DNA of 64,000 nt from Erinaceus europaeus (lineage: Eukaryota; Chordata; Mammalia; Eulipotyphla; Erinaceidae). The position numbers were made by a program, and so were the translations under genes. The number at the start of each line of letters is the position of its first letter. The first letter of the stretch is position 1. The notes under the pieces were generated by a model. That model made no database searches, was not told the DNA's origin, and worked only from the letters and a program-made list of their open reading frames with translations. The stretch is from assembly GCF_950295315.1 (NCBI RefSeq), contig NC_080172.1, positions 82,665,118 through 82,729,117 of the forward strand, read 5' to 3'. Positions 8,985 to 36,300 of this stretch are shown one piece after another.

Positions 8985-10985
8985 AAAGCAAATTTTTGAG
9001 AAAACTTGAGATATAGTGGTTATGTTCAGTAGCCCCCTTTCAAATGGGAAAAATAACTTTTCTGTATTTTGATAAAGGTGTTTACTTATCTTTTACTTAC
9101 AAGCATTCAGACTTAAATTTTAATATCTACTAAGTGAAATCTCAGTCTTGCAAATGCTCAGAAACCAAGACTAGCTATGGAGATTTATGTCCAGTCCATA
9201 TTGAAGTGCTTCTTTAGTACTTATGAGTTCATGCTGGTGTCCACTTAATACATGCAGAGTATTAGGTATCAGATATGTTACTTACGGTAATAGTTTATTT
9301 TCACGTGTTCAAAATTTCCAACAAAGTTTATAAATAGGTAATTTAGAGTTGTGAGAAAGGACAAAATAGCCTAAAATATATTTTGAAAGAAAACTTTTAC
9401 TAGACAAGGATAATTTATATTTTGCTTTTCTATTAGGTCAGAAAATGTTATTAGAGGTTGAGCTGTATAGTTCATAATTTTTGATTCATATATAATTATA
9501 TTTGAGGTGGATCTGTATACCAGATCATATTATACAAATGTCTTTTTTTGTATATTTATGTTTTAATGACTTAAAAAATCATACTTTATTAATATTTTAC
9601 AGTGGCTCCTTGGTTATTTAAATTCATATGCTCTTAAAAGTTTACTTGTCACTCAGCTACTTTTGTTCATAAAAATGTTGATTAAAAAAAGTGCCAAATG
9701 GTTGTTCTATTAAACATCAAGAATATAGTATTTAGACATGAAGTTTGAAATGTAACATATAACAGTTTCAGTGCAGTAATATCAGCTTTTTAACAAGTGA
9801 TTTTAGGGAAGTTGTAAGCTACTTTTATGGTGAAAATGTAGTTTAGAGATGTGCAGTTTAAATATTTACATCAATTCATATTGAATGTCAGTTTCAGTGA
9901 AGGAACAGTAGTTTGATATTTGAACTAGGTTCTAAGCAGAAAAGCTCCAGAGGAAAATTGACTTTGAGCTCCTGCTGACTGATTATGCTGACTATTCTTA
10001 AAACTGATTTATTTTTCCTACTTATCAAATTAATAAACTGTTATCACAATTTCATTTTATAGTCATTCAGCTGAGTTATTTTTAGAACAGGGTTTAGTAT
10101 CACTCATTTACATTTTCATTGGTATAGTACTTGATTTCATGTGAATGGATGCTTTGCATAAGATTATAAAGTCTATTTATGCTATACTGAAAGTCTTCTG
10201 TTGAAAGAATCCCCAGGATTACAGCATATTTTTAAAATAATTATAGGACCAAAGAAAAAGCACTTTTATCAAAATCTGGTCCTGTGTGCCTGGATTTATC
10301 AAAATATTTTTCTGAAGGGTATTACTAGAACACACAGGCATAATTAGGATGCTTTAATAATAACTAGTTCAATTTTTGGGTTGTTTCAGCATTTGCTCTT
10401 TAAAGTCATTACCTAGCAAGATTAAAACACATACAAGTATTACTAAATATTACACACCGGTTTAAATAAATTATGGCACCATTGCCCCATCATTGAGTTT
10501 TTGAAACTTTAACAATCACATATAACTGTCATTTTTGGCATTTATTTCTTATTACAGGTTGTAATTTATTGTGATTTAGAGCTTTTTAATGCTGTTTTGA
10601 ATTTGTATGTGTATTTTATTTGTTTAGAAGATTCTCTTGGGTTTGGGAATGTGATTTGTGTATTTAAATTTGTATGGACATAATTCAGGAGAATACATTA
10701 AATTTTTTCTTTGTTAAATGGCTTTTTAAAGTTGATAAATTTCTCTCTCATTTTTGTATCCACATATCTAGTTAGTGGGTTTATGGAAGTGGATTTTAAT
10801 TATTAATGCAATATATATTTCTTCTGTTTGTTTTCCTTGCTCACTGGTATCTGACTTAAACCATGAATTGAATTATACATCAAAAATGACTCACGAGTCT
10901 TTTCCCTACCTCTCTAGCTACTCTTAGCACATCTTTTTTCTAACCATAATCTATATTGAAGACTAGACTTTAAATTTCAGTAATT
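8985..10985. other. 2-kb repeat-poor AT-rich intergenic block
   Basis: No SINE or LINE signature, no frame above 60 codons and no splice-bounded coding block seen. It stands out because SINEs occur every few hundred bases elsewhere in the window. Confidence 0.5.
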
Positions 10986-11612: not shown

Positions 11613-11627
11613 TGCATCCCATACCCT
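11613..11627 (+). repeat. Target-site duplication, left copy
   Basis: TGCATCCCATACCCT, identical to 11810-11824. It brackets the 182-bp insert at 11628-11809. Confidence 0.9.
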
Positions 11628-11809
11628 TCTTCTTCTAGCGTTTGCCCTTCTTCCGTAGCCAGTCAACAGCGTCAGGTTGAGCCTGATGTCTGCTTGTTGC
11701 TGGCTTTGAAAGTGACTGGGATCCATGTGGATTCAGTCGGCTAGGAAGGATCGTCAGTTTCCCCAATAAATGGGTACTCACGGGATGCACCACGAGAAGG
11801 TCGATCCAA
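11628..11809 (-). mobile_element. 182-bp SINE-like element with LINE-shared 3' end
   Basis: Read on the minus strand, it starts TTGGATCGACCTTCTCGTGG, runs about 120 nt through sequence with no match elsewhere in the window, then enters 61 nt (plus 11629-11689) identical to the 3' end of the LINE at 12500-12560, and stops in a TAGAAGAAGAA tail. A perfect 15-bp target-site duplication flanks it. It has no coding frame. GGATCGACC resembles a weak B box but no convincing tRNA fold is visible, so it is either a SINE with an unusual head or an internally deleted LINE joining 5' and 3' ends. It differs from the abundant SINE families here, which end in AATAAA-type tails. Confidence 0.8.
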
Positions 11810-11824
11810 TGCATCCCATACCCT
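11810..11824 (+). repeat. Target-site duplication, right copy
   Basis: TGCATCCCATACCCT, the partner of 11613-11627, with no mismatch. Confidence 0.9.
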
Positions 11825-12470: not shown

Positions 12471-12498
12471 TACAATTAAGTACCCTTTTACTAATACT

Positions 12499-12974
12499 AC
12501 TTCTTCTAGCGTTTGCCCTTCTTCCGTAGCCAGTCAACAGCGTCAGGTTGAGCCTGATGTAAAGTTTCGAGACCTCCTTTGAATCTGGAGAGGTGGCAGT
12601 CGTTGACTATGTGAGTCATAGCCTGTCTGGAGCCGCAGGGGCAGTTCGGGTCGTCTCTGGCTCCCCAGCGATGGAACATAGCGGCGCACCGGCCATGGCC
12701 TGTTCGATAGCGATTGAGGAGGGCCCAATCATAACGTGCTAGGTCAAAGCCGGGTTGACGCTTGCAGGGGTCTGTGATGAGGTGTTTGTTCTTTACCTCA
12801 GCTGACTGCCAACTCTGTTTCCAAGAGTCTGGAACAGAGAAGTTCAGGCATAGGGGACCAGATTGGGTGACAAGACGTCAAGCGTTGGACAGGGTGGGCG
12901 AAGATATCCGCGTATATTGGCAGGTCCGGTCGAGCATAGACGTGGGAAATGAACTTAGATGATACCGCATCCCG
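12499..12974 (-). mobile_element. 5'-truncated non-L1 LINE 3' end
   Basis: GC-richer island in AT-rich DNA, bracketed by the 9-bp direct repeat ACTAATACT (12490-12498 and 12975-12983). The minus strand encodes the C-terminal end of a LINE reverse transcriptase protein (see the coding remnant), then a stop codon and a short (GAA)n-type tail instead of poly(A). Many CpGs survive, which argues for a fairly young insertion. Neither L1 (which ends in the YTMEYY region and poly(A)) nor BovB (different C-terminus as I know it) fits. Confidence 0.75.
12506..12877 (-). pseudogene. LINE ORF2-type C-terminal domain, open for 123 codons
   Basis: With no ATG at its start, this frame is open from after a TGA (12878-12880) to the natural TAG (12506-12508). 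Visible blocks in order: KHLITDPCKRQPGFDL, then WALLNRYRTGHGRC, then a Cys/His cluster CPCGSRQAMTHIVNDC (C-x-C-x8-H-x4-C counted loosely), then GGLETLHQAQPDAVDWL. I know this arrangement from the C-terminal zinc-knuckle-like region of many invertebrate LINE proteins, where it follows the reverse transcriptase. The upstream TGA may be a decayed CGA. Residues further upstream (12880-13010) appear in another frame, so a frameshift is also likely. It is a truncated copy and not itself a working gene. Confidence 0.7.
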
Positions 12975-12983
12975 ACTAATACT

Positions 12984-13379: not shown

Positions 13380-14070
13380 TTCTGTTTTTTAATCTTGTTT
13401 CATGGTTGTGTTCCTTGGTGTTAATTTTAAGAAGTCTGCATTAACCCCATCCATGGAAATGTTTGTTGGTTTTTCTCTGACCTTTTTTTCTCTGTTATAT
13501 CCTCTGATCTTTTTTCTTTTGTTCTGTTCTCATGGGTGATTTAACTCCTCTCCATGGTCCTTACTCTACCTTCATTTGTATCTATTTGCTCTTAAGTACC
13601 CTAAATTTTAGTTCTCAGTTTTAGACAATAACCATTTTTGAATGACTGATCAATAACCAAGTTCTTGAGAACAATAAATTTGGTGCAACTGGATGAAGTA
13701 GGATTTTGAAGTACTGTGGAAAGAGTAACCAACCGTACAAGACGCTTTTTAGTTCTTTCAATCGATGCAAAACAAGCTGCTAGGAATCTAGTTATTAAAT
13801 ATTTCATATTACTCTAACTCTGTGCACTTAACCTAATGCACTACTACCGCCTGACGTCCTTCACATTACTCACCATGAAGAGTGAAGCTAGAATCCAACT
13901 AAAATGTTTCAGCAAAAGAATGTTTTTTAAAAGAATTCTGAGTTTATGTACTGATGGGAAAAATACTTGACATTTATCAGGCTTTAAAAATGCCTTCTCC
14001 ATGGAAACTGATTCATTTTACAATTCTAGTCAGTCACAGATCAAAACAAATAGAAAATCCAATCTTAGGT
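13380..14070. other. Unassigned intergenic sequence
   Basis: A 68-codon minus-strand frame (13807-13601) shows no domain I can name. Not called as a gene. Confidence 0.3.
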
Positions 14071-14074
14071 TTAA

Positions 14075-14226
14075 ACGTTTTATTTTAAAGGGAAAAGGGG
14101 AGACACCTGCAGCACTGCTTCACTGCTGGTGAAGCTTCCCTGTGCAGGTTGGAGGGTGATGATCTGAACCCGGGTCCTTGAGCACTGTAATCTATGTACA
14201 CTGTACCTGGTGTGCCATCAGCCCCT
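14075..14226 (-). repeat. SINE family B
   Basis: Antisense fragment: ACACCTGCAGCACTGCTTCA to GTGTGCCATCAGCCCC. Confidence 0.8.
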
Positions 14227-14321
14227 GATGTGATAGTTTGATCTGCAGTCCACATCTATTTTTGTCAAATGCTTTTTCTACCACCACCTCCCCCTACACA
14301 CATTTTTTTTTAATTTGGGGG

Positions 14322-14600
14322 TGAGGTGGGGGTAGATAGCATAATGGTTATGCAAAGAGACTATCATGCCTGAGGCTCAGAAGGTCCAGGTTCAGTCTCC
14401 CGCACCACCATAAACCAGTGTTCTGGTAAAGAATAAATAAAAATTAGGAGGTTGGGCAGAAGGTAGATAGCATAATGGTTATACAAACAGACTCTCATGC
14501 CTGAGGCTCCAAAGACCCAGGTTCAATCCCCTGCACCACCACAAGCCAGAGCTGAACAGAGTTCTGGTAAAAACAAAACAAAACAAACAAAAAAAAACCC
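14322..14600 (+). repeat. Two tandem SINE family C copies
   Basis: Copy one spans about 14322-14445 and copy two 14452-14600, both in sense with GGTAGATAGCATAATGGTTA heads and short A-rich tails. Confidence 0.85.
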
Positions 14601-14637
14601 TGATTTAAAAATTGGGAGGTATTATTCTTATATAATA

Positions 14638-14795
14638 GACATTGATTGGATAGAGACATCCAAAAATCAGAAGGAAGGGGGTGATAGAGAGAGGGACAGA
14701 GAGACACCTGCCACGCTGCTTCATCCCCATGGAGACTGGAGGGCTCTAACCGGGTCCTTGCGCATTGTAACAGGTGCGCCACCGCTGGGCCCCCC
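14638..14795 (-). repeat. SINE family B
   Basis: Antisense copy, TTGGATAGAGACATCCAAAA to GTGCGCCACCGCTGGGCCCC. Confidence 0.82.
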
Positions 14796-15304
14796 ACACA
14801 TTGACAAACAGGTTTACAAAGTGACGAAACTATGTGAAAGTCATGTAAATTTTTAGTGGTAGAAAGAAAAGGTCCTGGAACAAGAGAGCTGTATTAGCAA
14901 GCATGCCCCATGAGAAGAGGCGCGCGCGCGTGTGTATGTAGACTGAAAAAGGTTATCATTACCCCTTTGGTTACCCACTACTTCTGGAAAACCATTTCAA
15001 CTGATTCCTTGGATTGCGGTCTCGTTAAGGCACAACTACAAAAAGCGCCAACCGTTGAGGACGCGTGGTCAGAGTCCCAAGTGCAGCAGCGGTAACTTTG
15101 AGAAACTTACATTTCTCCATCTGTGAGGGGGCGGACATAACGGTCCCCGCAGCCCAAAGGATCCTGCTAGCAGGTGAGAGAAAAGCAGACTCCCTCCAGC
15201 CACCAGCGCTCCCACGTGCCGCTCCCGGGTTCCCTCCCTGTGGAGCCACTGGCCCGCGACCCAGCTGCTAGGCGGCCGGGCTGCCGGGAGGGGCGGCGTC
15301 ACGT

Positions 15305-15330
15305 GGGCGGGGCGGGGCGGGGCGGGGCGG
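15305..15330 (+). promoter_or_regulatory. Tandem CGGGG array (Sp-type sites, G-quadruplex capable)
   Basis: Five runs of at least three to four G separated by single C, about 180 bp upstream of the start codon. Confidence 0.7.
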
Positions 15331-15387
15331 CTCGTCGGCCGATCGCACGATGTGACGCGCCGCCGGGAGGCAGGCCGGGCCCTCAAG

Positions 15388-15426
15388 ATGGCGGCGGGAG
15401 CCCCGAGCGGCTCGGCCCGGCAGTAG
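15388..15426 (+). CDS. Upstream ORF 1 of MFSD14A (12 codons)
   Basis: ATG lies inside the AAGATGGCGGC motif and the frame closes at TAG (15424-15426), 77 nt before the main start. It is used only if transcription starts upstream of 15388; that is inferred. Confidence 0.4.
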   Translation: MAAGAPSGSARQ

Positions 15427-15495
15427 TGGCGGCACGGCACTCGCCGCTGGGGCCGGCCGCCCCGGGAGTGGCTGCAGCAGCGCCAGGAGTCGAGG

Positions 15496-15507
15496 ATGGT
15501 AAAATGA
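15496..15507 (+). CDS. Upstream ORF 2 of MFSD14A (3 codons, overlaps main start)
   Basis: ATG GTA AAA TGA. The stop (15505-15507) overlaps the main ATG (15504-15506) as ATGA. The context GAGGATGG has G at +4 and G at -3, at least as good as the main start (AAAATGA, A at -3). Confidence 0.55.
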   Translation: MVK

Positions 15508-15587
15508 CCCAGGGAAAGAAGAAGAAACGGGCCGCGAACCGCAGTATCATGCTGGCCAAGAAGATAATCATTAAGGACGGAGGCACG
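15504..15587 (+). CDS. MFSD14A: MFSD14A exon 1 (residues 1-28)
   Basis: Cytosolic basic N-terminus ([14 protein letters not shown]). Donor ACG|GTGAGC, phase 0. Intron 1 is about 11 kb, the longest of the gene. Confidence 0.96.
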
Positions 15588-18500
15588 GTGAGCTGGGGGG
15601 TACCGCGCCCGCCGCGGAGCGTCCCTCGGGGGCCCCCAACCTGATCATTCTCTGGCCCCAGCGCTGGGGCCGCCAGCCGCCTCTGGGCTCCCTACTCCCC
15701 CCTCCCCTCCGCCAGTGCTGACGGGGTCTCAGGCTTCCGTGTCCCCGAGCCTCTGCGCGGGAGTCTTTCCTCCCCGGCCCGGCCTGCGGCCTCCAGGGCC
15801 CGTCCTCTTGGAGACGCCGCTCGCCGCGCCCGCACCTGCCGCCTTCTCCCCCCGGCGGCCCCGGGGAGGCTCTGCGGCCTGGAGCCCCACGTGCGCCTCC
15901 GCAGGGAGCCGATCGACGCCAGACCCGCCCGCCGCGCCCTCGCCTCCGCGGGCAGGCCCCGCGCCGCGCCGCTGGGGAAGGAAGGGGCAGGCGGCGCTCC
16001 CTGCGCTCCCATATGCTGCTCACCGGCTGGCATCTGGCGCGGCCACCCCGCGGGCGCCCCGTAGCGCGTTCGCCCTTCCCTCCCTCCGCGTTCCGGGTCG
16101 GTGCTCTGCTCTTAGCCGCTGCCGGTCCGGTCAACACCAGCACAAGGTGGGCTGGCGCGGCTGTCGGCTCCACTTCCCAGTCAGGAGCGGGTCGGAGGAC
16201 ACCTGGGGCCTAGGCTTCAGTCTGTTAGTTTTCAAAAATCTGTGATCATCCAGTTGTCTTGAAATCAGTAAAGACTAAATAGAAGTGGCCGTGGCTTGAG
16301 GATTAGGAGACTTTGAAAAGAAAGCAGGTTGAGGGCAAGGGAACATTTTTTTTTTTTTTTGCTTTTCAGATACAGTTGTCATCACAATAAACTTTGTGCG
16401 TGTGCTGTCGTTAGCCAGCAGGGGACGTAAGGTTTTTAATTGAAAAAAAGTCGTATAGGCTTTTATGCTGAGATTTCTACTTTTCTCCACTCTTTGGTCT
16501 TTGTTGGCATTCTTTGCTATCACGTTCCGAAATAGAATGGAAAAGTGTTTGACTTTCCAACAAGTGTGCAGGAATGAGTCCTAACCTTTATTTGTATGTA
16601 TATTCCTTTAACTCCATCAGTTGCTAGCACAATACTAAATATGTAAGTAAACCACTTCACAGTGTTTGATTAATTTGATTAAGTGATAGCTTCCTTCTGA
16701 CTTTTTAGAAAACTGCCCTGTTAATATACTAACATTTAGAAAGTTTGGCACGTATGTAATGATCTCAGAATGTACTTTTTACTGTCAAGTTTATTAGGTG
16801 TCATAGCTCTGACATTTGGTAGGGGAAAAAAAAACCTTGGAGATTAAAGTTCTGAGATCTTGTTGCTGTACGTGTTTCGTTAAAACCATACTTCTATCAA
16901 ATTAATTAGGGATAATCATGGCTCTTGACCAAACTGAGAGAGTGAAGTAGAGAAAGGACCTTAAGGAGTGCTATCTGCCTTAGAGAAACACAGGGACTTG
17001 ACTTTTTTTTATTCACAATTAAAAATATATATACAAGGGAGTCGGGCTGTAGTGCAGCGGACAAAGAGCAGGTGTCGCAAAGCACAAGGACCGGCATAAG
17101 GATCCCGGTTCGAACCCCGGCTCCCCACTTGCAGGGGAGTCGCTTCACAGGTGGTGAAGCAGGTCTGCAGGTGTCTGTCTTTCTCTCCTCTCTGTCTTCC
17201 CCTCCTCTCTCCATTTCTCTCTGTCCTATCCAACAACGACAACAACAATAATAACTACAACAATAAAACAAGGGCAACAAAAAGGAATAAATAAAATAAA
17301 TATTTAAAAAAAATTTTTAAATATATATATATACAAAATAGAAACAACAACAAGGAGTTGTGTCTTATAAGAGCAAATAATATTTAACCTCTGTATAATT
17401 TGCAGGAAAATTAAACTAATCGAAATGCACCTTTTTATTTTCAATTTTGTTAGCTCAAGAGTTTTGATTCTCTTTATAGGAGATATTTCCATTCCAAATC
17501 CTTTGTAAAGTTGTAAATTCACAACTTGCTTTTGTACACAAAATAGACTTTTTACAGTGCTATATGTATTTAAGAAGGCACATAAAATAAATGAAAACTT
17601 TTTTGAGGGAAATGAACCTTGTAGGTATAATCATTTATCACCTTCATACACCTTATATTTTTAATTATTTGGGGCACCTTCGTACACTTTATAAGAGCAT
17701 TGTTGCTCCTTTAGAATAAAGTATTTGTTTATATATCTTAGAATGCAACAGGGCCTGTGTGTGAATTTAAATTAGTAAAAATTAGATTTAGGTGTGTGTG
17801 TTTCCATTTTGACCAGAACACCTGACTCATCTTTGACTGTTGGTGGTGCTAGACGCTTCTTTTAATTTGGTGGGGCTTGGCACACGCCAGAGTAGCTCAT
17901 ATGCAAAGCAGCACTATCCAGATGAATTACCTTGCTGACCCTAGTTTTAAACTTTCTTTTCTTTTCTTTTTTTTTTTAGAATTTTTAAAAAATCATCTTT
18001 ACTTATTTATTGGATAGAGACAGGTAGAAATTGAGAGGGAAGGGGGTGATAGAGAGGGAGAGAGACAGAGAGACACTTGCAGCCCTGCTTCACCACTTGT
18101 GAAGCCTTCCCCCTGCAGGTGGGGACCGGGGGATCAAACCTGGATCCTTGGGCACTGTAACATGTGTGCTCAGCCAGGTGCCGCCCCACCCCCATTTTCA
18201 ATTTTTTTTAAGCTATTTATTCCCTTTTGTTGCCCTTGTTGTTTTGTTGTCATTATTATTGTTGTTATTGATGTCATTGTTGTTGGATAGGACAGAGAGA
18301 AATGGAGAGAGGAGGGGAAGACAGAGAAGGGGAGAGAAAGATAGACACCTGCAGACCTGCTTCACCACTTGTGAAGTGACTCCCCTGCAGGTGGGGAGCC
18401 GGGGACTTGAACTGGGATCCTTACGCCAGTCCTTGCACTTTGTGCCATCTCATTTTCAATTTTAATGTATGTAACATCCTGATACATACTCAGTGCAGAC

Positions 18501-33300: not shown

Positions 33301-36300
33301 TACACATCAGACACCAAGATGGAAGGTGTGGCAAGGGAGAGTATGCCAGCTTTCTTTAAAGAAAAATATAGAATGGCCACCCTGCGTAATACCAGGTTTT
33401 CACATGGGTGTGAGTGAAGGTCAGGGCAGTCGACAGTAAGAAACTGATTCTCCTAAGGTAATAGAGCTCAATTTACTTGGAGGTTTTAGTAAGACTCTAA
33501 TATTCTATTCCACTGAGAAGTAATGTTAGTTGATTATAAAATTGTAGGTGGGTTATATTTCCATGCTGGTGCCCAGAAAGACCAAGGCTACGTGTGGCTT
33601 AGGTTCTTCCTGTCATAGACTAGATATAACTCTGAACACCAACAAATATAAGAAATGAACAAAAAAGTCTGCTGTGGGAAGAATGTTTTTAAAAATTTAG
33701 TCAAGAATCAAGCCCTGCTGAGGTTTATTTTGAAATTTCATTAAGATTGTACAGGGCTATTGCTGGGATTTTGGTGTCTGCATGACAAACCCACCACTCC
33801 CAACAGCTTTTTTTTTTTTTTTAATTAGATAAGACCGAGAAATTGAGGGGAGCAGAGGGGAAGACAGGAAGGAGAGAGAAACACTGCTTTACCAGTTGTG
33901 AAGCTTCCCCCATGCAGGTAGAGACTGGAACCTCAAACCTGGGCCCTTGGCCTGATTACACTTGATTTTAAAAACTAAATATCAGCATTATAATAAAAAC
34001 TTATTCGTACCCAGATATTTTGAGATCATGTATATAAAAGTACAGATATAAAAATATTTCTCCAATCTTTCAGTAACTGTTCTCAGTTATTTATGAACAC
34101 TGCTGTACAGGTTTCTTCTGTATAAAGACTGGGTTTTTTGTTTTTTGTTTTATCCAACATTTGAAGAGCTAAATATTACTTACAGGGGGAAAAAAAAGTC
34201 CAACTTTCTATATATAGGCTTGAAACAAATAGGTTATTCATCAGTTTCATTTACTGAATTTTGTTTTTTGTATAGGACTGTGGTAGGAAATAGCAATGGC
34301 TGAATTATAATTTAGTTTGTTTTTATATTTAGTAGAATTAAAGCCATCTGACAGTTCAGTAGTTGGATGGCAGATCTAAATATAGGGTTGGGGAGATAGC
34401 ATACTGGTTATGGAAAAGACTTTCATGCCTAAGGCTCTGAGGTCCCAAATTCAATCCCTAATACCACCATAAGCCAGACCAGAGTAGTACTTTTGTGTCT
34501 ATCTCTCCCTACCTCTCTCTCTCTCTACTACCCCTCCATGTATATTTTTCTTTGTATCTCATTAAAATAAATAATTTTTAAAAGAGCTGGATATGTTCTT
34601 AAGTTTTAAATGTTCCTGAATATTAGCTGAGTGGCTATCAAGGTGCTACTTATAGCTATAATTTATGATTTATAGAATTAATCCATAGACTGTCTAGCTA
34701 AACTGTTGACTGAAAATAGCTATTTAATTTAATGATAGAAATGAAAGTTAAGGTACTTGTCATTGTCACAACTATTTATTTTTTTATCAATTGTCTTTCA
34801 ATTCTAGGTGGTACTTTGCTGTCATATCTGTTTCTGGAGTTTTTGCAGTGACTTTCTCCGTGGTATTTGCATATGTAGCAGATATAACCCAAGAACATGA
34901 AAGAAGTATGGCTTACGGACTGGTATGTGTATTTATTTTGTACCTTTGTGTTGAATACACTTGTTTTTAAAATGATCTCATTATGGAGAAACAAAAGCTT
35001 TTGTACCACAAGTATATATATAACATATTTCATAATAATAAATTGCAGTAAACATTTTCTCAGTACAAAGCAAGATGAGTTTTGAGACTTTGTTTATTGT
35101 TTGTCACATATCTGATTTTAAATTAAAGCAGACTTTTTTTTCTCCTTTTGTTGCCCTTGTTTTTTTTATTGTTGTAGTTACTATTGTTATTGTTACTGAT
35201 ATCGTCATTGTTGGATAGGACAGAGATAAATGGAGAGAGGAGGGAAAGACAGAGGGGGAGAGAAAGAGATACCTGCAGATCTGCTTCACTGCCTGTGCCA
35301 GTCCTCACACTTTGAGCCACCTGTGCTTAACCCACTGCGCTACCACCCGACTCCCTATTTTTTTACCTTGAAGAAGTCCAACAGAAATTCATAATAAAGG
35401 GTGTGCATGTGTGTCTGGGACGTCACACACGCACAGCCCCACCACTCCTGACTGACTTCCCCAGATAGAGTGTAATAGAATGAGAGAGTGGCTCCACAGC
35501 AGTGAAGTTCCCTCCGGTGCTATAGTGCACTCATGTGCCAGAGACTTGAACTTGGGCTGCACACGTGGCAAGGCAAGTGCCCTACCAGGTCATCTGTCTA
35601 CTGAGACCTCTGCATCTTGTTTGTTTAATGGGGAGCAAATAACCAGAGAGTCTTTTTGGCAAGTGTAGCGCTAGAGATTGAACTTGGGACCTCATTCATG
35701 TAGTTCTGCACTTTACTACTGCACCATCTGCCCTGTTCTTTCTTTCTCCTGTGCAGTTTAAATCCTATATCCTCAAGTGAAAAATGACACCGAAACTGAA
35801 TAAAGCTCAAGTAAAGGAGCAGCAGCAGTCCTTGTACTTCTGTAATCACTACTTTATTTATTGTTATTTTTAATGACACTGATTTCTTATTATCTGTCAT
35901 GTGTAATCTGCTGCCACATCCATTACTAATATGCAGGCCATCTTGTCCAGTGAGCCAGATGAGGTGACACACATGGGTTTTGTCATCTTCTTTATTAGAC
36001 TTGAATGAGTTTCCTTAGAGATTTAAAGAGACCTTGTTAGAAATGTGCTTAAAGCACATCTCATTCTTCTTAACCCAACCACCTGAAAGATCACCACATT
36101 CAGTTTTTACCATGGATTACTTAGCACTACTGCTAATGAGAACAGACACCTCAAAACATCTTTTCAGCTTTATTTTAGCCAGCTCTGAATGCATATTCAA
36201 GTAGATATTTAATTTCAATGCTGGGGGTGGGTAATCACCATGAGACGAGATTTCCTCGGGGCTATCTGGAGATGTCCTAAAATCTAGCATTACACAAGTC

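Follow-up and report, generated by a model that had tools for sequence, protein, structure and literature searches.

A short repeat in the hedgehog genome (Erinaceus europaeus) raises two questions: from what was it assembled, and what sets the position of its 5' end? The repeat lies within the 64-kb stretch of DNA analyzed here, positions 82665118-82729117 of contig NC_080172.1, which I will call the window. An earlier note, made without tools, took it for a 182-bp SINE-like element that shares its 3' end with a nearby LINE and could not say where the rest had come from. The features discussed below are collected in Table 1.

Table 1. Features of the short element and of the nearby LINE copy, in window coordinates. 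TSD, target site duplication; EN, endonuclease.
Feature	Position	Strand	Basis or remark
Whole element, 190 nt	11628..11817	(-)	LINE 5' end plus LINE 3' end, GAA tail terminal; first 8 nt overlap the TSD
Head: LINE 5' UTR and first ~12 codons, ATG 11724-11726	11690..11817	(-)	Same head precedes LINE EN start
LINE-common 3' end: last codons, stop TAG, GAA tail	11628..11689	(-)	
TSD copy, element 3' side	11613..11627	(+)	Direct-repeat search
TSD copy, element 5' side	11810..11824	(+)	11810-11817 also counts as element nt 1-8
Predicted HDV-like self-cleaving ribozyme, head nt 1-70, cut right before G1 (11817)	11748..11817	(-)	Rfam, pseudoknot descriptor, shuffles
P1 5' strand GGGATGC	11811..11817	(-)	Pairs with 11782-11788; descriptor
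P1 3' strand (P1') GCATCCC	11782..11788	(-)	Descriptor
P2 5' strand GGATCG, pseudoknot helix	11802..11807	(-)	Pairs with 11748-11753; descriptor
P2 3' strand (P2') CGATCC	11748..11753	(-)	Descriptor
P3 (ACC/GGT) and loop L3 TTCTCGT	11789..11801	(-)	Descriptor; cf. Drosophila R2 catalytic primers (PMC3414825)
Candidate catalytic C, head nt 61, within J4/2 (CTGA, directly 5' of P2')	11757	(-)	Inferred from P2-based fold
Parent LINE copy, 5'-truncated, frame-shifted	12499..12974	(-)	C-terminal cysteine motif, stop, GAA tail

Boundaries, copies and 5' ends

The sense strand of the element is the minus strand, with the 5' end near 11817 and the GAA tail near 11628. A direct-repeat search recovered the perfect 15-bp TSD described earlier, TGCATCCCATACCCT being present at both 11613-11627 and 11810-11824 with 100% identity. 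The extent of 182 bp needs revision, although the duplication on which it was based is present: the eight innermost nucleotides of the TSD (GGGATGCA, read on the minus strand) resemble the first 8 nt of the family itself, so that 190 nt (11628-11817) is the better extent for the element. With a 15-bp TSD that runs 8 nt into the element, the window copy is exceptional among the copies.

The 61 nt held in common with the LINE copy at 12499-12974 were found again by BLASTN, at 100% identity, within a 64-nt direct repeat (11626-11689 and 12497-12560, 98%). They do not match by chance, for a 35-nt piece of this end occurs at just these two window sites with up to three mismatches, where shuffling (100 shuffles) predicts 0. 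The remainder of the element, the head, has no second match in the 64-kb window at E ≤ 1 (BLASTN), as had been claimed. The proposed insertion into a SINE received weak support: the flanks, once joined, gave five window BLAST matches at E ≤ 1e-10, of which two span the junction, at 71-73% identity.

The overlap between element and TSD may be read in another way. The window copy might lack the first 8 nt of the family, having been truncated at TTGG, in which case the TSD would be plain target DNA with a chance match to the family 5' end. Copies truncated near TTGG exist (e.g., L022 and L101), and TGCA is found at the insertion spot in several other SINE copies of the window, but such a truncation presupposes that 8 nt agree by chance and in exact register. 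The target of a full-length copy must contain these 8 nt too, but there annealing of the cDNA end could favor the match; in R2, varying 5' junctions have been put down to microhomology that cDNA and target happen to have (PMC3774820). I consider the truncation unlikely. If the copy is full-length, as I prefer to think, its target would have held GGGATGCA, and these 8 nt would count both as the start of the element and as the inner end of the TSD.

The head is not confined to this locus. A 31-nt core of it occurs at 9,839 sites with no more than two mismatches in the 2.72-Gb assembly (LINE heads included), while the reversed core occurs at 0, and the idea of unique DNA captured once can be rejected. 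Ninety copies were fetched from 100 listed among the 9,839, all of them exact matches to the core and all from a single contig (C1), and 89 of the 90 reach the LINE 3' end within 700 nt. Counts of the starting heptamer and of C61 refer to 91 heads (the 90 loci plus the window, ungapped), and counts of junctions and TSDs to 90 elements (89 loci plus the window); one locus (L120) had no tail in range and does not enter the parsed sets. The sample is rich in short derivatives, most with TSDs and GAA tails. They differ in the junction between head and 3' end: AGCTTTCAACC in 69 of the 90, ACATCAGG (the type of the window copy) in 13, AGCTTTGCTG in 3, and others in 5. Compared between about head nt 17 and the stop, the window copy lies 0.0% from the consensus of its type and the other 12 members lie 0.6-2.4% from it, which marks the window copy as a young member. 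As a side observation, the deletion in the commonest type (69/90) is in frame and gives, by hand translation, a 31-codon open reading frame made of the first and last codons of the LINE; in the window copy's subfamily the 3' end is out of frame with the ATG of the head. A different kind of structure is seen at L082 (approximately 486-915), where an insertion with a single TSD comprises one whole short element, followed by a run of GAA and by a second LINE 3' fragment. It looks as if the template had been switched, from LINE RNA to the RNA of the short element.

TSDs of at least 9 nt flank 61 of the 90 copies, as compared to a mean of 0.9 and a maximum of 3 in 50 controls with swapped flanks. 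In 48 of these 61 copies the end of the TSD is no more than 2 nt away from the nucleotide I call G1 (exactly at G1 in 22), and the 5' strand of P1 therefore belongs to the element. The heptamer GGGATGC stands exactly at the start of 57 of the 91 heads, and the start GGG(A/T)TGC is intact in 67 of 90 copies, with other starts in 23. Most copies, then, begin at one fixed nucleotide, G1. Seven (L003, L006, L026, L080, L082, L084, and L098) show one or two additional T residues between TSD and G1, as if non-templated nucleotides had been joined to the end of the cDNA.

A predicted ribozyme at the start of the head

What lies at this fixed end was absent from the earlier note: the first 70 nt of the element RNA are predicted to form an HDV-like ribozyme that cuts right before G1. 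In HDV-like ribozymes the cut falls just ahead of P1 (PMC4908430), so the ends at G1 fit the predicted site, an indirect agreement that a promoter start could equally produce. The fold begins at nt 1, with P1 of 7 bp, P2 (the pseudoknot) of 6 bp, and P3 of 3 bp, all of Watson-Crick pairs. It thus has the pseudoknotted order of P1, P2, and P3, with P1 at the extreme 5' end, that defines the HDV-like class. Its J1/2 is 3 nt long, a length that allowed cleavage in an HDV-like ribozyme (PMC4908430). Ribozymes of the class have an L3 core with a conserved G (PMC3774820), and so does the TTCTCGT of the window and of the fetched short elements, in which it is fixed by the search pattern. P1.1, expected to have one or two pairs, has one sure pair by eye (C22-G37). 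The core CCTTCTCGTGGT agrees in 11 of 12 letters with the core of a Drosophila R2 ribozyme primer, CCTCCTCGTGGT (PMC3414825).

Rfam's HDV_ribozyme model (RF00094) aligns over its full length to 11750-11819 on the minus strand, with 26.2 bits (E 0.046 in a 241-nt search). Scores of the model range from 21.7 to 27.3 bits, all under its gathering score of 50; it yields no match in the window at the gathering threshold and is not listed in an Rfam scan of the whole window at E ≤ 10. The P2 pseudoknot is missing from the Rfam structure line, and the alignment places a G at the model's catalytic C. The candidate C61 comes instead from the P2-based fold, and C occupies that position in 86 of the 91 heads. 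Matches to HIV-1_SL3, SNORD49, SNORA11, MIR, and other Rfam models fall below their gathering scores and were set aside as chance.

Searched with the same model, 17 of 20 short-element loci (20.6 kb) gave a match, with E values of 2.4-7.6 that are singly weak, always at the 5' end of the element and nowhere else. This is a favorable sample, hand-picked from 29 loci (L061-L089). The nine omitted are L063, L067, L069, L072, L076, L077, L082, L084, and L088, among which L063, L067, L069, L076, and L077 have altered starts. The three loci within the sample that the model missed (L064, L081, and L085) are P1 variants.

A strict descriptor (P1 of 7 bp, P2 of 6 bp, and P3 of 3 bp in HDV order, with Watson-Crick pairs only) matched the 64-kb window in a (TA)n tract and at position 11817 alone. 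When one G-U pair per helix was allowed, five further regions appeared besides (TA)n, near 34731, 34961, 42863, 53830, and 57467. With (TA)n masked, 77 strict matches turned up in 400 window shuffles, 70 of which had at least one, and structure by itself therefore does not make a ribozyme significant at an arbitrary place in the 64 kb. Since the fold is not rare across the window, its significance is drawn from its position at the 5' end and from the copies. Among 40,000 shuffles of the 128-nt head, the strict fold came up once within the first 21 nt (15 times with G-U) and 0 times at nt 1 (once with G-U).

The last of these counts bears on a second alternative, that an internal promoter in the head starts the RNA at G1 and that the fold resembles a ribozyme incidentally or as a relic. 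The trypanosomatid element L1Tc offers a precedent, for its internal promoter Pr77 overlaps a ribozyme (PMC8256844), and copies with a mismatched P1 (GGGTTGC) likewise start at or near G1. Against this stands the strict P1/P2/P3 pseudoknot lying exactly at G1, and promoter and ribozyme may in any case coexist, as they do in L1Tc. A start of transcription at G1 with an incidental or relic fold seems to me quite improbable.

The mismatched copies deserve attention in their own right. The start GGGTTGC, which sets a U-U mismatch against an unchanged P1', is found in 10 of 90 copies of several junction types (e.g., L001, L013, L018, L026, and L108) and in one LINE copy (L136), and may thus have spread with a weakened ribozyme. 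No compensating change accompanies the mismatch in these copies; selection on the exact head core has fixed P3, L3, and P1' (as GCATCCC) in the sample. GGGTTGC may be the mark of a lineage whose ribozyme is weakened or which sets its 5' end in some other way. The copies are too alike to establish compensatory covariation for the fold.

Both ends from one LINE

The origin of the head, for which the earlier note had suggested comparison with tRNA, 5S, 7SL, and the LINE 5' end, is the last of these. A start pattern for the LINE endonuclease (EN), with the EN-like start LRVLQLNVEGLS in the LINE stretches, occurs at 2,193 sites in the genome. The first 20 of these were sampled (L124-L143, stretches of about 308 nt, all on contig C1), and in 18 the same head stands 144-145 nt upstream of the EN start; the other two stretches end inside the head. 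The flanks before the head differ among the 18 loci. The first codons of the LINE (MDPSHFQSQQQ...) lie in the head, and at L120 the head continues into an endonuclease-like start. The head is thus the LINE's own 5' end, and the element is the LINE minus its middle rather than a SINE with a foreign head: it derives from the LINE at both ends, as does an internally deleted LINE derivative of the SIDE type.

Among the 18 LINE heads, the start is GGGATGC in 9 and GGG, at the position of G1, in 12, the rest being altered; one copy (L133) has A4G in the P1 strand. P1' is GCATCTC in 8 (giving a G-U pair), GCATCCC in 8, and something else in 2, and L3 is TTCCCGT in 15 of the 18 and TTCTCGT in 0. Ungapped pair counts are not meaningful for L141 (an indel) and L131 (a shift). 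RF00094 matched at E ≤ 10 in just 4 of the 20 LINE 5' stretches. Any comparison of ribozyme strength between derivatives and LINE involves a short-element sample preselected on TTCTCGT and GCATCCC.

The LINE copy in the window (476 bp) is flanked by a 9-bp repeat, ACTAATACT, at 12490-12498 and 12975-12983 (by eye), and its reading frame shifts partway, according to a three-frame translation. Pfam found nothing in two C-terminal pieces of it at E ≤ 1. The C-terminal segment has three homologues, 52-58% identical, and in its own genome a first look gave 39,103 candidates, the 150 best of which were scored and are all 98-100% identical; these figures describe a sample of best matches and are no copy count. 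In a longer copy (L122), 708 aa are open and contain a reverse transcriptase domain (RVT_1, PF00078, E 4e-27), the sole Pfam domain there at E ≤ 1e-3, with no RNase H. Its best full-length relatives are single proteins of about 1,000 aa with PF14529 and PF00078, at 53-57% identity, and further relatives extend down to 42% (among 120 listed of 1,814 hits). The two longest-frame copies fetched, L121 and L122, have no match to the head and therefore look 5'-truncated. A scan of genome contigs turned up one distant locus (L123, 30% identity), and exact and protein scans of viral contigs turned up no relatives.

Vingi elements are not known to have RNase H, unlike Ingi, the two being sister clades. 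A LINE with EN and RT domains and without RNase H in a hedgehog-like genome fits the description of Vingi. The parent LINE is probably of the Vingi type, judging by the reverse transcriptase of L122, the EN-like start on other copies, the domain content, and these traits.

The earlier claim of a non-autonomous partner carrying the 3' end of a non-L1 LINE thus holds, given the TSD, the GAA tail, and the many copies. I am fairly confident in regarding the element as a non-autonomous, young product of internal deletion in a Vingi-type LINE, with a predicted HDV-like ribozyme at its 5' end. The SINE label fails, and the chance that this is a classical SINE, with an unrelated pol III head on a LINE 3' end, is vanishingly small: size, TSD, and LINE-common 3' end would fit, and a Vingi LINE of Anolis does have a SINE partner with a tRNA head (SINE2-1_Acar; PMC3747384), but the LINE 5' ends refute it, and neither a tRNA (ARAGORN) nor a 5S or 7SL match (Rfam) was found in the window.

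Known systems and a possible route of spread

Kojima, Kapitonov and Jurka reportedly distinguished, in 2011, 11 families of internally deleted Vingi derivatives. Vingi is present in hedgehogs, where Vingi-1N3_EE has 311 copies under 1% divergence (PMC3183009). Vingi-1_EE and Vingi-1N (Repbase) represent a recent non-L1 LINE of the hedgehog with internally deleted derivatives, and the window copy is likened to them by description only. The earlier note had allowed that a match to a catalogued element would count as a refutation, and this probably applies to the repeat family, since Vingi-1N has been named (PMC3183009), the comparison being by name only.

SIDEs of the Drosophila R2 element also combine a 5' HDV-like ribozyme with a LINE 3' end and are mobilized in trans. 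They differ in having the R2 ribozyme, in their site specificity for rDNA, in belonging to insects, and in their demonstrated self-cleavage in vitro (PMC3414825). L1Tc and other ingi-clade elements, along with SIDERs, carry HDV-like ribozymes as well, but in trypanosomatids, where the ribozyme overlaps a known promoter and catalysis is kept in the majority of those tested (PMC4035085). SINE2-1_Acar, with Vingi-2_Acar, resembles the hedgehog element as a short element partnered with a Vingi LINE but is catalogued as a SINE (PMC3747384). The CPEB3 ribozyme is HDV-like and mammalian, but it is intronic in one gene and not mobile (PMC8233481). The accessible text of two papers places the HDV-like ribozymes of mammals in CPEB3 only (PMC8233481, PMC4908430). 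A ribozyme of a different class, twister-sister-like, has been reported for a human LINE-1 sequence (PMC11620745). A 2025 survey of LINEs and SINEs in an African hedgehog counts 4,476 I-Jockey copies and, in its accessible text, does not use the word Vingi (PMC12026660). My literature search, mostly of papers outside subscription, found no published HDV-like ribozyme in a hedgehog or Vingi retrotransposon. While the kind of ribozyme is known, a mammalian, Vingi-borne, high-copy member appears to be new as far as that search reaches.

The following route may be proposed. The predicted ribozyme would trim transcripts that read in from flanking DNA to the exact start of the element, whatever the promoter. 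The LINE protein, acting in trans, would recognize the LINE-common 3' end and GAA tail, prime reverse transcription at a nick, and copy as far as G1, after which the cDNA end would join the upstream target, sometimes aided by short matches. I lean towards the broader view modeled on this route: a mammal would have thousands of self-cleaving HDV-like ribozymes beyond CPEB3, carried through the genome by a Vingi LINE and by the derivatives that arose from it by deletion, in which cleavage would set the exact 5' end of the element, no promoter of its own would be needed, and the defined cDNA end could anneal to the target.

If this is true, a young, mobile ribozyme with its core at thousands of mammalian sites would overturn the placement in CPEB3 only, and the ribozyme would be present in Vingi as well as in Ingi. 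It would also help explain the spread of a 190-nt element with no obvious promoter, and the thousands of candidate cleavage sites could affect host transcripts.

A last, minor observation concerns the composition of the window, where G+C is 57.7% in 14001-16000 as against 31-46% in the remaining 2-kb bins.
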